Origin: Candidatus Accumulibacter phosphatis
Lineage (GTDB): Bacteria; Pseudomonadota; Gammaproteobacteria; Burkholderiales; Rhodocyclaceae
Assembly: GCF_012939955.1 (NCBI RefSeq)
Contig: NZ_SPMY01000023.1
Location: 1-55,360 of the forward strand
DNA length: 55,360 nucleotides
Direction: 5' to 3'
Positions within the stretch are counted from its first letter, which is position 1. Each line of letters starts with the position of its first letter. The translations under genes and the position numbers were made by a program. Below are positions 1,500 through 6,859 of this stretch, one piece after another. The notes under the pieces were generated by a model. That model saw only the letters and a program-made list of their open reading frames with translations, had not been told where the DNA came from and did not search any database.

Positions 1500-2091
1500 G
1501 TTGCTCCCTTGCGGCGCCTGTGGCGCTGCTCAGCCACCGAAATCGTCGAGCAGGATGCTTTCGCGTGCGACGCCGAGATCGGTCAGCATCCTTGTCACCG
1601 CACTGTTCATCATCGGCGGACCACAAAGGTAGTACTCGCAGTCCTCCGGCGCCGGATGGTTGTTCAGGTAATCGTCGAGCAAGACTTGATGGATGAAGCC
1701 AGTGCGGCCCTGCCAATGGTCGCTCGGCAGCGGATCCGATAGCGCCAGGTGCCAAGTGAAATTGCTGTTGTCGCGGCTCAATTGCTCGAACTCCTCGACG
1801 TAGAATGCTTCGCGCAGGGACCGTGCGCCATACCAGAAGGCGATTCGGCGCTTGCTCCCTCGGCGCTTGAGCAGGTCGAAAATGTGCGAGCGTAGCGGTG
1901 CCATGCCGGCACCGCCGCCGATGTAGATCATCTCGGCGTCGGTCTCGCGGGCGTGGAATTCTCCGAAGGGGCCGTAGAGCGTCACCCTATCGCCGGGTTT
2001 GCGGCCGAATACCCAGGACGACATCTTGCCCGGCGGAATGTCGTTTCTGCCGGGCGGTGGCGTGGCGATACGGATGTTGAATTTGATTAGG

Positions 2092-2101
2092 CGCTTAAGC
2101 G
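2092..2101. repeat. palindrome at the 3' end of the inserted element
   Basis: CGCTTAAGCG is a perfect 10-bp palindrome one base inside the inferred element edge. It also contains the TAA stop codon of the element's gene. It is a candidate end-recognition hairpin that pairs functionally with the hairpins at 4004-4050. Confidence 0.6.
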
Positions 2102-3792
2102 GGTGTTGACGCAAACATGTTGGTGTTAATGTAGGTGCCAGGACCAACGGTGATGTGCAGGGTGTCGAAGGTGCTGCGCAACTGGCGCTGGAGATTTTCG
2201 TAGTGCTGGTCAAGGGCCTGGATGTTCTTGGGTGGGGGTCCCAGGTGTGGTTTGCCGGCGCCGGCGAGAACGGGTTTGATGACTTTCTCGCGCAGGATGA
2301 GCCAGCCAGCCAGAATGCTGATGCCCGTCGGATGGGGCCGGTAGCGGCGCGTTGTGGCGATGCGCTCGATGAGTTTCTTGCCACGGAACTTCATGAGATC
2401 GTAGGCGGCCTGACGCCCGGTGTAGCCGTCGCGGGCGACTTCAGGCAGCGAAGGACGCACTGCGTCAGCAAGCTCTTGTACCGTGAACCCGTCGGGATTG
2501 GGCGCGAGATGCAGGACGGCTTCGGCGACAGAGCGCATGCGCGGCTTTTGTAGATCGACGCCGGACAAGCGGCGATTGCCGCGCTCGGTCGGTTCGATGA
2601 GGGAGTCGAGCACGCCATCGGGAAGGAAGCTGACATGTGCGGCCTGCATGGCGTTGAGAAAGTCGATCGCCATGTGCTGGAGCTTGGCCAGCATGATCGA
2701 GAGTTTCTCCAGCGAACGCCCGCAGCGCAGTTCCTTGATGTTGTGGGCGATGGCCTCGGCGCGCAGCACGCGCGCTCCCTTGTCGTAGAGCTTGAGGGTC
2801 AGCGCTCCGAAATGTACCTTGAAGACCGTCAGGTCGTAGGCAGACTGATCCACGATACGAGCCACGCCGTGGCTTCTGTCGGTACGCCAGCGGGGTCTTT
2901 GTTTGCGGCCGAATAGCGTGCGCAGGACCGGCACGTCGAGCAGACGCCGGGTACGATCGATCAAGCCCTGGAAGATCGCATCCAGGGTGTTGCCACGAAC
3001 GAACAAGAGATTGCGACTGTACTCGATCTGATAGACCGAGTAGCGGTACCGAAAGCGGCTGCGCTCTTGCTCCTCGATCGTCAGAGCGAAGCACAGGCAG
3101 CTCGAGTACACCCAACGGTCACAGACCTCGGCCAGTCGCCCTATGGCGTGCTCATCGCACAAGGTATCTGCGAGCTGATCCAAAGCCTGGAACGAACCCC
3201 CGACGAAGCAGTTACCCTCCTTCTCCAAGGAGATGGTCTGCGCGCGGGCTTGCCGTTCGACCCATTCGTGACCGTTGAGCATGATTTGGACACCGAAAGG
3301 CGGATGTCCACTCATTTTGATGGTGAGGTGACCCCACTCGGGGTCGATCAGGTGAAAGTGGTAATGATTGACGTAGGGCCAGGGCTTCTTGCGCTCCAGG
3401 TGGGGCGAACCGTTCTTGCAGGTCGTCACCTCCCAGACCAGGGCAGGTGCCTTGGCGACGAGGATCAGGAACAGGCCGCGAAACTGCGGATCCGCGGGTA
3501 GGTATTTCTCGGCCAACTCGTGCTTGCGCAGATCGGGAGGGCAATGGATCAGGGGAATGTCGTGCTCCTTGGCCCAGGCATGAACCCGACGGCTGAAGCG
3601 CCCGGCCATCTGCATCAGGTGATCCGCATCCAGGGTCGCGTCCGATCCGGTGAGCGCTCGCCACCAGGTACGGAAAGCGCCCCCTTGCTGGCCGAGGGGA
3701 AAGTAGCCATTGAGCACGATGCGATCGATGCAGTCATAACGACCTTCAAGGAGCTCTTCGTAATACGCGGACAAGTCATCGGCTTGTTTCAT
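2095..3792 (-). CDS. putative transposase/recombinase of an unrecognised family
   Basis: 565 residues. I cannot assign it to a known transposase family, but it is the only gene of the insertion and so is the likely mobility protein. Visible features: [18 protein letters not shown] at residues 138-155 with an H-F-H triplet (145-147) that could be an HUH-type metal site; [19 protein letters not shown] at 159-177; [14 protein letters not shown] at 333-346; and a C-terminal winged-helix-like part at about 430-490 (VQELADAV, then [19 protein letters not shown] and [10 protein letters not shown]). The ATG at 3792 is preferred to the GTG at 3813 because GAGG lies eight bases upstream. That ATG overlaps the stop of the truncated nqrF frame (ATGA). 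The TAA stop sits inside the element's end palindrome. Confidence 0.7.
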
Positions 3793-4003
3793 CGCAAGAA
3801 CCTCGGTGGGCACCGGAAAATCCCGTCATCCTTTGACAGGCGCGGCGCGAACGGGATTCTTTTCTTTCGCCCGGCGAGGCGTGACCCTCTGTTTGCCCGG
3901 AACCACCCCTGAGTGTGGCACCCCTCGCACGGTCTGCGTACCATCACGAATACCCATCCCATGGCGTCAGGACCGCACCATTCCGACAACTCAGTTCGCG
4001 GCT

Positions 4004-4050
4004 GTTCTCCGCAGGAGAACCTCTTTTCCCAAGCGCAGTCTTGGGAAAAG
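4004..4050 (-). other. two perfect hairpins at the 5' end of the inserted element
   Basis: Two adjacent perfect inverted repeats sit just inside the element's leader end: GTTCTCC-GCA-GGAGAAC (4004-4020) and CTTTTCCCAAG-CGCAGT-CTTGGGAAAAG (4023-4050). On the transcribed strand they are the first structures of the leader. They may be recognition hairpins for single-strand transposition, or part of a structured RNA. The remaining leader (3815-4003) has further short complementary stretches but no obvious protein-coding signal of its own. Confidence 0.75.
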
Positions 4051-4730
4051 CCTAGCCCCTTCTCTTGCGGATAGTTGGCCATCGAATAGGCGCGTATCGT
4101 CGATTCGCCTACGTGCGAAACATAGCGCCAGAGATCCAGGCGATCCCAGTCTTCGCGGTATTCCGGGGCGACATCGATGTCGGCGTAGCGTTGCTCGTGC
4201 GGGGGGCATTCGAGCTGCATGTAGCTGCCGGCGCGAAAGCTCACCGCCTCGCCGTCGGGCATGGCCAGGGTCAGTTCCTTGATGAAGGTGGCTACGTTGT
4301 CGTTGGCGATCACCCGACAGTCCCAGCGCCGAACACCGAAGACCGACTCCGGAACTCGGATGCTCATATCCTGGCGAACGGGCAACTGGCACGAGAGACG
4401 CCAGCCCTCGCGTTCCTGCCGACGAGTGAAATGCCCGCGCTCGGTCGGCGTCATGTCTCCGCCACCGGCCTCGACCAGGCATTTGCACTGGGCACAGGTG
4501 CCACCGCCGCCACAGGCCGACGAGAGGAAGAGATTCTGGCTGGCCAGCGTCTGCAAGAGCTTGCCGCCGACCGGGACGAGCAAGGTACGCTGGCCATTGA
4601 CCTCCAGCCGCACGTCGCCGCTGGGGACCAGTCGCTGCCGTGCCAGCAGGATGACCGCCACCAGAAGGAGCACGGTGCCGGTGAAGACAGTGATGGCCAG
4701 CGTGATTTCGGCAAGCATGGAGGGCAGTCC

Positions 4731-5339
4731 TCAAAGCTTGATGCCGGCAAAGGACATGAAGCCCAGCGACATCAATCCAATGGTGATGAAAGTAATGCCG
4801 AGACCAGAGAGACCGGCGGGCGGATCGCTGTACTTGAGCTTTTCGCGAATACCGGCGAGCAGTGCGATGGCCAGCGCCCAGGAAAACCCCGAAGCGAGTC
4901 CATAGACCGCGCTCTCGGCAAAATCGTAATCGCGCTCGACCATGAATAGCGTGCCGCCGAGGATTGCGCAATTGACGGTGATCAGCGGCAGGAAAACGCC
5001 GAGCGCGTTGTAGAGTGCCGGCACATAGCGGTCGAGCAGCATTTCGAGGATTTGTACCAATGCGGCGATGACGCCGATGTAGGTCAGCAGGCCGAGGAAG
5101 GCAAGATCGCTTTCGGGCAGGCCAACCCAGGCCAGGGCGCCTTCGCGGAGCACGTGCGTGTAGATCAGGTTGTTAACCGGCACAGTGATCGTCTGGACGA
5201 GCATCACTGCGATCCCGAGTCCGATTGCCGTCTCGACCTTCTTCGAGATGGCTATGAAGGTGCACATGCCGAGAAAGAAGGCCAGCGCCATGTTTTCGAC
5301 GAAAACCGCGCGGACAAAGAGAGCCAGTAGATGTTCCAT
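4731..5339 (-). CDS. nqrE: Na+-translocating NADH:quinone reductase subunit E
   Basis: 202 residues, the usual length for NqrE, with six predicted membrane helices. Diagnostic stretches are [20 protein letters not shown] near the N-terminus, [18 protein letters not shown] in the middle and the [19 protein letters not shown] end. NqrE is one of the two homologous membrane subunits (with NqrD) whose cysteines hold the intramembrane iron site; the cysteines in GMCTF and NCAIL are present. It lies 12 bases upstream of nqrF and follows nqrD by about 33 bases. Downstream genes are separated from it by the nqrF insertion, but nqrE itself appears intact. Confidence 0.96.
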
Positions 5340-5372
5340 CTCAGCGGACCCTGGAATTGCTGTTCGGGAGGC

Positions 5373-6056
5373 TCATGGTTCTTGCTCGCGCACCTGTGGT
5401 GCCATACGGAAGGCCGGCGATTCGACCTGCTCCGGCTTCCAGCTGCGCAGTGCCCAGATAAACAAACCGATCAGGAAAAAGGCGGAGGGTGGCAAAAGGA
5501 GCAGGCCGTTCGGCAAATACCAGCCACCGTCGGCGACGGTAGGCAGTACCCGGTAACCGATCAGCGTGCCGCTGCCAAAGAGCTCGCGGGTGATACCCAG
5601 GGCAATGAGTAGCGCGCTGTAACCCAGCCCGTTGCCGATGCCATCCAGGAAAGACGGCCATGGCGGGTTCTGCATGGCAAAGGCTTCGGCGCGGCCCATG
5701 ACGATGCAGTTGGTGATGATCAGCCCGACGAACACGGACAGCTGCTTGGCCAACTCGAAGGCGACCGCACGCAGTACCTGATCGACGACGATGACCAGAG
5801 AGGCAATGATGACCACCTGCACGATCATGCGGATAGCCCCGGGGATCTGGTGGCGGAGCAGCGAGATGAAGAGGTTCGAGAAGGCGGTCACCAGCGTCAG
5901 GGCCACGGACATGACGAGCGCCGTCTTGAGGTTCGCCGTCACCGCCAGCGCCGAGCAAATGCCGAGGATCTGCAAGGCAATTGGGTTGTTGTCGAAGACC
6001 GGGGCGAAAAGTACGGTGAGCGCACGCGGTTTCGTTGCCGAAGTGCCGGTATTCAC
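5373..6056 (-). CDS. nqrD: Na+-translocating NADH:quinone reductase subunit D
   Basis: 227 residues with six helices. [23 protein letters not shown] at the N-terminus, [20 protein letters not shown] and [19 protein letters not shown] are the family signatures, including the two cysteines (GICSAL and TNCIVMG) that ligand the membrane Fe centre with NqrE. The start is a GTG (6056) that overlaps the nqrC stop as GTGA, with AGGGAG upstream within nqrC, so translation is probably coupled. The C-terminal tail ([16 protein letters not shown]) is polar and longer than in Vibrio. Confidence 0.96.
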
Positions 6057-6859
6057 GATTCAACTCCCTCTTGTCGCAGACGTTTCAGATAGGGGCCGTA
6101 GCCCTGCGGACCGAGCCAGAAGCGAATCATGTTGTTGACGCCATTGCTGGTAAGCGTCGCGCCAGCCAGCGCGTCGACGCGCCATCTCGAGTCCTGGTTA
6201 TCGCTACCGGCCTTGCCGACGCGCAGCTTCAGCTGCCCGTCGCTATCGAACAGGTGCTTGCCTGGCCAAAGCGCCTTCCAGCGCGGGTTGTCGACTTCTC
6301 CGCCCAAGCCCGGCGTTTCAGCGTGCTGATAAAAACGCAGCCCGAGGACGGTATTGAGGTCGGCGTCGACGGCGAGAAAGCCGTACAGGGTCGACCACAG
6401 GCCATAGCCGCGCACGGGCAGGATCAGCGCCTCGACGCGCTCGCCCTTCATCAGCTTATAGACCACTGCGTAGCGCTCGCGCCGCTGGATGCCGGCGATG
6501 TCCTCGCTACGCGACAGTGCTCGTGAGAGCGCCGGATCGGTGGCGGCGCGGGCGCCCTCCCAGGTCAGTGGGTCGAAATTGTCGTGGCCTGGTGGGGAAG
6601 CGATGTAGGCGCCGGTGTTCAGATCGACGAGGCGCGGCGTGATGCGTTCGCGAAAGCGTTCGCCGACCTCGGTGGCCGACAGCGCACGATCGTGCAGACC
6701 GACGATCGCCAGCAGGTGACGCTCGCGGTCGACGCGGCGATTTTCCAGCTGCATCGACTTCAAGCCCACCGCCGTCCCGGCGACGACCATTGAACAAACC
6801 AGGCTGACCAGCAGCGCGATGCGCAGAACGGCGAGCGGCGTTTCCCTAAGGGCAGGCAT
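6053..6859 (-). CDS. nqrC: Na+-translocating NADH:quinone reductase subunit C
   Basis: 268 residues. One N-terminal transmembrane helix (about 12-35) is followed by the periplasmic FMN domain. The covalent FMN site is the threonine of [14 protein letters not shown] near residues 240-255, matching the S/A-GAT motif of the family, and [15 protein letters not shown] and [14 protein letters not shown] are conserved NqrC blocks. An ATG at 6859 is chosen over the GTG immediately before it, because GGGAG lies seven bases upstream. It overlaps the end of nqrB by about 14 bases and the start of nqrD by 4 bases, so the genes are tightly coupled. Confidence 0.96.

Follow-up and report, generated by a model that had tools for sequence, protein, structure and literature searches.

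An apparently undescribed transposable element family with single-strand transposon features and a possibly Rep_trans-like tyrosine nuclease

Insertion sequences (IS) of the IS200/IS605 type have no terminal inverted repeats (TIRs), carry a subterminal hairpin, insert beside a fixed short target, and show an orientation bias relative to the replication strand. The single-strand transposons covered in one review use HUH enzymes, and IS91 is described there as having a rolling-circle-type protein, no TIR, and no direct repeats (PMC5714925). In these sources, transposition is described for HUH enzymes, and plasmid and phage replication and conjugation for Rep_trans enzymes (PMC5714925, PMC13107129, PMC9371924). 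Here we describe an element found in a stretch of 55,360 nucleotides of Candidatus Accumulibacter phosphatis (contig NZ_SPMY01000023.1; the whole stretch is called the window), where it interrupts nqrF. Its sequence supports an apparently undescribed transposable element with single-strand transposon features. With a probability of roughly 0.6, we propose that it belongs to an undescribed IS family and moves as single-stranded DNA by means of a tyrosine nuclease that is Rep_trans-like and not HUH; the proposal draws on how the invariant residues and the predicted strands are ordered and on the likeness of the nick site.

Rep_trans enzymes carry motifs N' (D), I (RxD), II (T/SxY/ExG), III (YxKxxE), and IV (W/LxRxE) (PMC5714925). 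In RepDE, the metal ligands Asp-46, Asp-142, and Glu-214 lie on separate strands, Tyr-191 is catalytic, and Arg-189, Lys-193, and Arg-212 are at the site (PMC4797284). The fold has TBP connectivity (PMC4797284, PMC13107129), and for MOBT and Rep_trans enzymes the nick site is CT'AA, placed in a GC-rich hairpin loop (PMC9371924). The motifs of the Phage_CRI gene II proteins (M13, IKe) are considered similar to those of Rep_trans (PMC4797284, PMC5714925). Rep-Arvir (PF25227), from archaeal viruses and plasmids, has an N-terminal TBP-like nuclease with Glu-25, Asp-207, Glu-303, and Tyr-283 and a C-terminal domain that is compared with MarR; its link to Rep_trans is described as not recognizable by sequence (PMC13107129).

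The element spans positions 2091-4052 (1,962 bp), with its open reading frame (ORF) on the - strand, and its limits were set by flank joining, gapless empty sites, and the same ends in related copies. It divides nqrF into a 5' part (4053-4718, - strand) and a 3' part (1530-2090, - strand, right CTA included). On the ORF strand, CTA borders the element on both sides (TAG on the + strand), the left junction reading GGGGCTA followed by GGCTTTTCCCAAG and the right one CTTAAGCGC followed by CTAATCAAA. Joining the flanks with a single CTA restores an uninterrupted NqrF of 407 aa; the sequence gained amounts to 1,965 bp, the second CTA contributing 3 of these bases. A query made of the nqrF flank matched 6 of the 28 genomes of the genus, namely its own, three that were 93-94% identical over the whole query, and two with short matches. 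Alignments of the joined sequence with the three same-genus genomes were gapless along 298, 299, and 299 bp, these genomes representing empty sites, and a fourth, poorer match (83% over 156 bp, 2 gaps) likewise had no insert. These data confirm the borders that an initial annotation of the window had drawn from the exact reconstruction of nqrF. The possibility that the sequence is a stable host gene is ruled out by the empty sites. The codon at the insertion point is CTG or CTC in the three empty-site relatives and CTA here; judging from the junctions, the original target in this genome would have read CTA. The empty-site comparison for Rhodococcus, Caballeronia, and Paraburkholderia copies gave no result. 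As a separate observation, nqrF is broken (1530-4718), so that the Na+-pumping NADH:quinone reductase of this genome may be inactive, unless only part of the population carries the insert.

We then compared 26 left and 25 right ends across the element family, the left end being the one 5' of the ORF. The window element is bordered by CTA on the left (4053-4055, - strand, in the flank) and on the right (2088-2090, - strand), and (C/T)TA was found at 26/26 left junctions (25 CTA, 1 TTA) and 25/25 right junctions (23 CTA, 2 TTA). The ends of eight loci (L004, L005, L011, L013, L014, L018, L081, and L082) were placed by motif likeness and are therefore not independent; those located from the points where close copies diverge (window-type, L016-type, L066-type, L020/L022, and L083/L084) also fit the (C/T)TA rule. 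The left flank reads CCTA in 14/14 members of the L016/L066-type group, and the right triplet is followed by A in 13, G in 8, and T in 4 of 25 right flanks. In L013 the left triplet is CTA and the right one TTA, a difference that argues against a true duplication unless one triplet has mutated; two other copies with TTA, L006 (left) and L085 (right), are readable on one side only. The empty site holds one triplet and the element junctions two. The sequence comparison thus supports TAG/CTA as a fixed target, one of the two options that the initial annotation had left to empty sites, and the other, duplication, fits nearly as well, L013 being the copy that speaks against it.

The left end carries two hairpins on the - strand: CTTTTCCCAAG-N6-CTTGGGAAAAG (4023-4050), with an 11-bp perfect stem lying 2 nt inside the left border, and GTTCTCC-TGC-GGAGAAC (4004-4020), with a 7-bp stem. 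The left end of the window element folds better than 200/200 shuffled sequences (z -3.66). Among relatives, whose folded stretches begin a few bases outside the element (13 in L004), the number of shuffles as good as the left end was 0 for L004, 0 for L005, 4 for L020, 13 for L016, and 26 for L066 (of 200 each). The first hairpin occurs at the same place in L004, L005, and L020 and in the L016 and L066 groups, the minimum-energy fold of L004 favoring a longer alternative pairing. It is followed in L004, L005, and L020 by a CCCTTCGGG-type hairpin resembling the second hairpin of the window element. At the right end lies a 10-bp palindrome, CGCTTAAGCG (2092-2101), which is not stable as a hairpin. 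No TIR longer than about five bases was seen by eye (no repeat search was run). The initial annotation had suggested a possibly undescribed transposable element of single-strand design, with palindromes at both ends and no TIRs; the left hairpin, the lack of a recognizable TIR, and the fixed target agree with it, and the right-hand palindrome does not hold as a hairpin.

Family elements measure 1.6-2.0 kb, have an ORF of ~500-590 aa, and reach six copies per genome. Counting the element's own genome within each taxon, and with many of the matches being fragments, the window protein was matched in 5/199 genomes of the family and 10/28 of the genus, an 8-row profile in 12/398 genomes of the phylum, and the L016 protein in 8/369 genomes of the class. 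Relatives of the window protein include four Accumulibacter loci (89-94% identity in the best segment), one acidobacterial locus (57%), and a Desulfonatronospira metagenome-assembled genome (72%). Plasmid records contained relatives in 12 of 72,556 cases, one from Mycobacterium riyadhense (48%) and the other 11 from Rhodococcus, Paraburkholderia, and others (22-37% identity). A tblastn search of the window protein against 50,697 phage records found no match, and we rejected a phage gene on this ground; scans of viral contigs gave relatives in 2 of 8, L065 in both and a degraded L098 in one. Members are annotated as "hypothetical protein" and in one case as "ArsR family transcriptional regulator" (WP_063501089.1).

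The window element DNA is a single copy in its own genome, and evidence of movement comes from other copies. Genome G834 holds six copies with an identical protein at different sites; a DNA comparison of four of these showed them to be identical from one end to the other. Genome G018 holds three full-length copies that are 99.7% identical, one more that has 1.2 kb in common with them, and a relative at 80% identity, and M. riyadhense holds two copies that are 97% identical. Window-type left ends occur in four different sequence contexts, and L016 sits in a transposase gene whose frame is restored by a join with one CTA. We regard it as nearly certain that this is a real, mobile, and unannotated element family. 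The G834:C2 copies (L066, L074, L078, L080, L149, and L150) all lie on the + strand, at most ~0.22 Mb from the ends of a 3.7-Mb contig.

The ORF encodes a predicted transposase of 565 aa (2095-3792, - strand, ATG at 3792, stop codon included) and fills 1,698 of the 1,962 bp. Pfam and NCBIfam gave no match above cut-off for the window protein and six relatives (7 proteins), in line with the initial annotation, which had recognized no transposase motif. PHROG gave none above cut-off in the proteins tested, and a PDB sequence search returned four matches, the best at E 0.085. The weak sub-threshold matches included, for the C-terminal parts of L014 and L016, helix-turn-helix (HTH) models. A winged-helix DNA-binding region may lie at residues ~410-492 (2317-2565, - strand, limits approximate), where the first structural model described below places helices mostly at pLDDT <50; the winged helix of the initial annotation is retained as a possibility drawn from the sub-threshold matches in these two relatives.

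Conservation was read from an alignment of 25 rows including the window protein, obtained from 29 family ORFs at 26 loci after dropping five near-duplicates; partial sequences were kept, so n varies per residue. Invariant or nearly so are D23-R24, K90, D150, G154, P165, N173-G174, N194, Q255-x-E257, K334-x-Y336-x-K338, and L343-R344-x-E346, and the catalytic-looking ones among them stay invariant at a family identity of ~22-26%. Asp-23 (3724-3726, - strand), a proposed metal ligand equivalent to motif N', is D in 16/17 sequences and E in the other, and the next residue is R in 18/18. Q255-x-E257 (3022-3030, - strand), the proposed equivalent of motif I, is present in 25/25 and falls on a strand predicted with low confidence (250-257). 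The stretch K334-x-Y336-x-K338...L343-R344-x-E346 (2755-2793, - strand) would contain the catalytic tyrosine (motif III) and the last metal ligand (motif IV); Lys-334, Tyr-336, Arg-344, and Glu-346 are kept in 22/22, Lys-338 in 21/22, and Leu-343 in 20/22, and the two motifs fall on adjacent strands, 331-338 and 341-349, again predicted with low confidence. The HYHFH motif at residues 143-147, which the initial annotation had read as a possible HUH site, is present as described. His-143 is found in 19/23 sequences, His-145 in 4/24, and His-147 in 4/24, the last being mostly Y. Since His-145 is needed for either HUH pair in HYHFH, the HUH reading is unsupported; the invariant residues and the predicted order of strands are more in keeping with the other, unrelated class of rolling-circle nuclease, Rep_trans with its TBP-like fold.

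In the family, D23, QxE257, KxY336xK, and LRxE346 follow the Rep_trans order N', I, III, IV, and the corresponding stretch of pT181 Rep reads R-x-Y-x-K ... W-R-x-E. The pattern Y-x-K/R ... R-x-E occurs in 21/25 family sequences, 9/9 Rep_trans sequences, and 4/9 gene II proteins; the family misses are three fragments without the region and L070, which has H for K. The Rep_trans set comprised four Reps from plasmids, that of pT181 being partial, and five of the six genome matches from a motif-like filter, one sequence (L104) being cut to 145 aa. These five had themselves been chosen with a pattern of this sort, which leaves the four plasmid Reps as the actual test. The pattern is loose enough to match other places in some sequences, which makes it a lead and not a proof. 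PF02486 is absent from the Pfam matches of the 7 proteins, and a PF02486 search of the element's own genome was empty at E up to 1. The junctions resemble CT'AA in that (C/T)TA is present at 51/51 junctions and the next base is A in 13/25 right flanks, the cleavage itself being putative. In all, the element shares with the Rep_trans (PF02486)/MOBT proteins (pT181 and pC221 Reps, NicK, RelSt3) the order D, acid, Y-x-K, L/W-R-x-E, a predicted TBP-like strand order, and a CT'A-type site beside a hairpin (PMC4797284, PMC5714925, PMC9371924). It differs in showing no significant sequence similarity, in its motif I, and in the presumed role of its protein, which would serve to move a small IS; moreover, the Rep_trans/MOBT site lies in the hairpin loop, whereas the element junction lies beside the hairpin.

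Two AlphaFold models were built from seven sequences: model 1, with a mean pLDDT of 45, and model 2, covering residues 1-400, with a mean of 54 and a pTM of 0.56. The first half of model 2 has a strand at 24-30, helices, strands at 140-150, 154-161, and 167-173, and a helix; the second half has a strand at 250-257, a helix, strands at 321-328, 331-338, and 341-349, and a helix. Its main strands thus run strand-helix-three strands-helix, twice, with extra strands in between (81-84, 108-134, 189-199, and 311-315). This is the order found in TBP, and with low confidence we take the predicted strands to follow the TBP-like order that Rep_trans also has. A Foldseek search of model 1 against PDB named TBP in 9 of the best 50 of 583 matches (best E 0.04), and 0/583 matches reached E 0.001. 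Against viral models, model 2 matched TBP at rank 1 (E 9.8e-4, the only match to pass E 0.001) and at rank 6. Rank 2 was A0A2N9QVX7, which is named as a viral TBP match for the Rep_trans-related Rep-Arvir (PMC13107129).

Single-strand movement of the element appears likely, and we infer the following mechanism. The transposase would combine a Rep_trans-type nuclease with a TBP-like double saddle at the N terminus and an HTH-like DNA-binding region at the C terminus, and would recognize the left hairpin region. Asp-23, Glu-257, and Glu-346 would hold a metal that helps Tyr-336, which would attack one strand at YT'A at each end, so that the enzyme becomes joined to the 5' end. The element ends could then join into a single-stranded circle or be passed on directly, and the strand would be inserted at YT'A where the target DNA is exposed as a single strand, after which host replication would yield the double-stranded insert. 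With each partner giving one pyrimidine-T and one A, (C/T)TA would appear on both sides from one target site with no staggered-cut duplication. We favor, by a little over even odds, the broader statement that Rep_trans/TBP-fold tyrosine nucleases drive taxonomically wide, unannotated single-strand transposons that insert at (C/T)T'A.

Several results weigh against this proposal. In sequence, motif I is QxE and not RxD, motif II is not clearly recognized, and the Y-to-E spacing is 10 residues in the family versus 23 in pT181 Rep. Comparison by hhalign gave P 0.5 for the family versus Rep_trans and P 0.45 for the family versus gene II proteins (P 0.002 for Rep_trans versus gene II proteins). Residues 250-400 of model 2 are almost all below pLDDT 50, so the placing of Glu-257, Tyr-336, and Glu-346 is weak. 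Foldseek of model 2 against PDB listed no TBP among 50 matches, TM-scores were ~0.2, and no Rep_trans protein was named among the 50 viral matches listed. At the DNA level, the right end of the window element folds no better than shuffles (z +0.25; 119/200 as good), and neither does that of L020, the second of the two right ends tested (36/200 as good, in a stretch cutting into an inverted repeat that pairs when folded otherwise), so a hairpin is shown for the left end only. Orientation versus GC skew, taken from 20 stretches of 20 kb per genome and noisy around two G018 copies, was about even (3:3 in G834 and 3:2 in G018; 11 copies). The flanks of L017 (G018), joined with one CTA, are one base out of frame. 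The L017 host gene appears IS21-like by eye, and either an imprecise insertion or an earlier mutation may account for this frame. Finally, the sequence of the junctions would be explained nearly as well by a nick after A or by a 3-bp duplication, and CTA on both sides is compatible with the latter in all copies read on two sides except L013.

We weighed four other explanations. A double-strand-cutting transposase whose fold is not known could generate a 3-bp duplication of a fixed (C/T)TA, as both triplets are CTA in nearly all copies read on two sides and the empty site has one. The left CCTA preference does not count against this, because on the right side the element itself supplies the fourth base in both scenarios. 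We nevertheless consider it unlikely, given the CTA/TTA pair of L013 (though mutation could explain one case), the left hairpin, the invariant tyrosine, and the absence of DDE IS traits, with no TIR beyond about five bases by eye and no DDE family match in the proteins tested (no Pfam/NCBIfam match above cut-off, 7 proteins). The tyrosine nuclease of a single-strand transposon might also be neither HUH nor Rep_trans, and so an unrelated new fold. The same anatomy and the lack of any significant sequence or confident structural match to Rep_trans are in keeping with this idea, which the order of the invariant residues, the duplicated strand pattern, and the TBP matches render rather improbable.

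The protein could alternatively be a passenger or regulator, with another transposase moving the element, as the possible C-terminal HTH region and the ArsR-family annotation of WP_063501089.1 would allow; the share of the element taken up by the ORF and the invariance of catalytic-looking residues at ~22-26% identity make this very improbable. Least probable is the HUH (Y1/Y2) transposase of the initial annotation. HYHFH in the window protein, His-143 in 19/23, and the left hairpin without TIR recommended it, but His-145 and His-147 are each kept in 4/24, no HUH family match was found in the proteins tested, and the invariant tyrosine is predicted, with low confidence, on a strand and not a helix.

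The element can also be compared with other known systems. With IS200/IS605 it shares the left hairpin, a fixed short target with insertion beside it, and no TIR by eye, the absence of duplication being suggested by one copy only. It differs in having no conserved HUH, a much larger protein, a hairpin almost at the border, and no replication-strand bias (11 copies). IS91 and Helitrons share a rolling-circle-type protein and the lack of TIRs but are HUH enzymes, IS91 with two catalytic tyrosines. In gene II proteins, hhalign was not significant, and the Y-x-K/R...R-x-E pattern of 4/9 is not always at the corresponding place. Rep-Arvir resembles the proposed enzyme in its N-terminal TBP-like nuclease with three acids and a tyrosine, in its C-terminal domain, and in a link to Rep_trans that sequence does not reveal, and A0A2N9QVX7 came up as a structural match for both; it differs as a replication initiator, and PF25227 is not among the Pfam matches of the window protein.

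Among the titles and abstract starts listed from the open-access literature, a scope that leaves ISfinder and subscription papers outside, no title concerned a Rep_trans transposase or this element family. If the proposal is right, a second, unrelated rolling-circle nuclease fold would have been recruited by convergent evolution to single-strand transposition, and plasmid, phage, and relaxase enzymes would be linked to insertion sequences. The transposase class itself would be new only if the Rep_trans-like chemistry is right. Proteins that are at present annotated as "hypothetical protein" or "ArsR regulator" across several phyla would gain a family name, and they offer a target-specific enzyme to test.

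Some further members deserve mention. The window's own genome has two divergent partial relatives, at G000:C47:64878-65993 and G000:C72:34-891 (L055, L062, L070, and L077). On the M. riyadhense plasmid L020, two family members stand side by side (3239-4855 and 4998-6659), sharing 26% and 49% identity with the window protein, respectively; the second one carries at its right end a long inverted repeat, TAGCCGCTTGAGGAT ... ATCCTCAAGCGGCTA. L003 (Accumulibacter) lacks ~150 residues in frame within the transposase gene and keeps both ends, and may be non-autonomous. L065 (IMGVR_UViG_3300032109_000005) is an L016-type fragment (70% identical) in a contig classed as viral.

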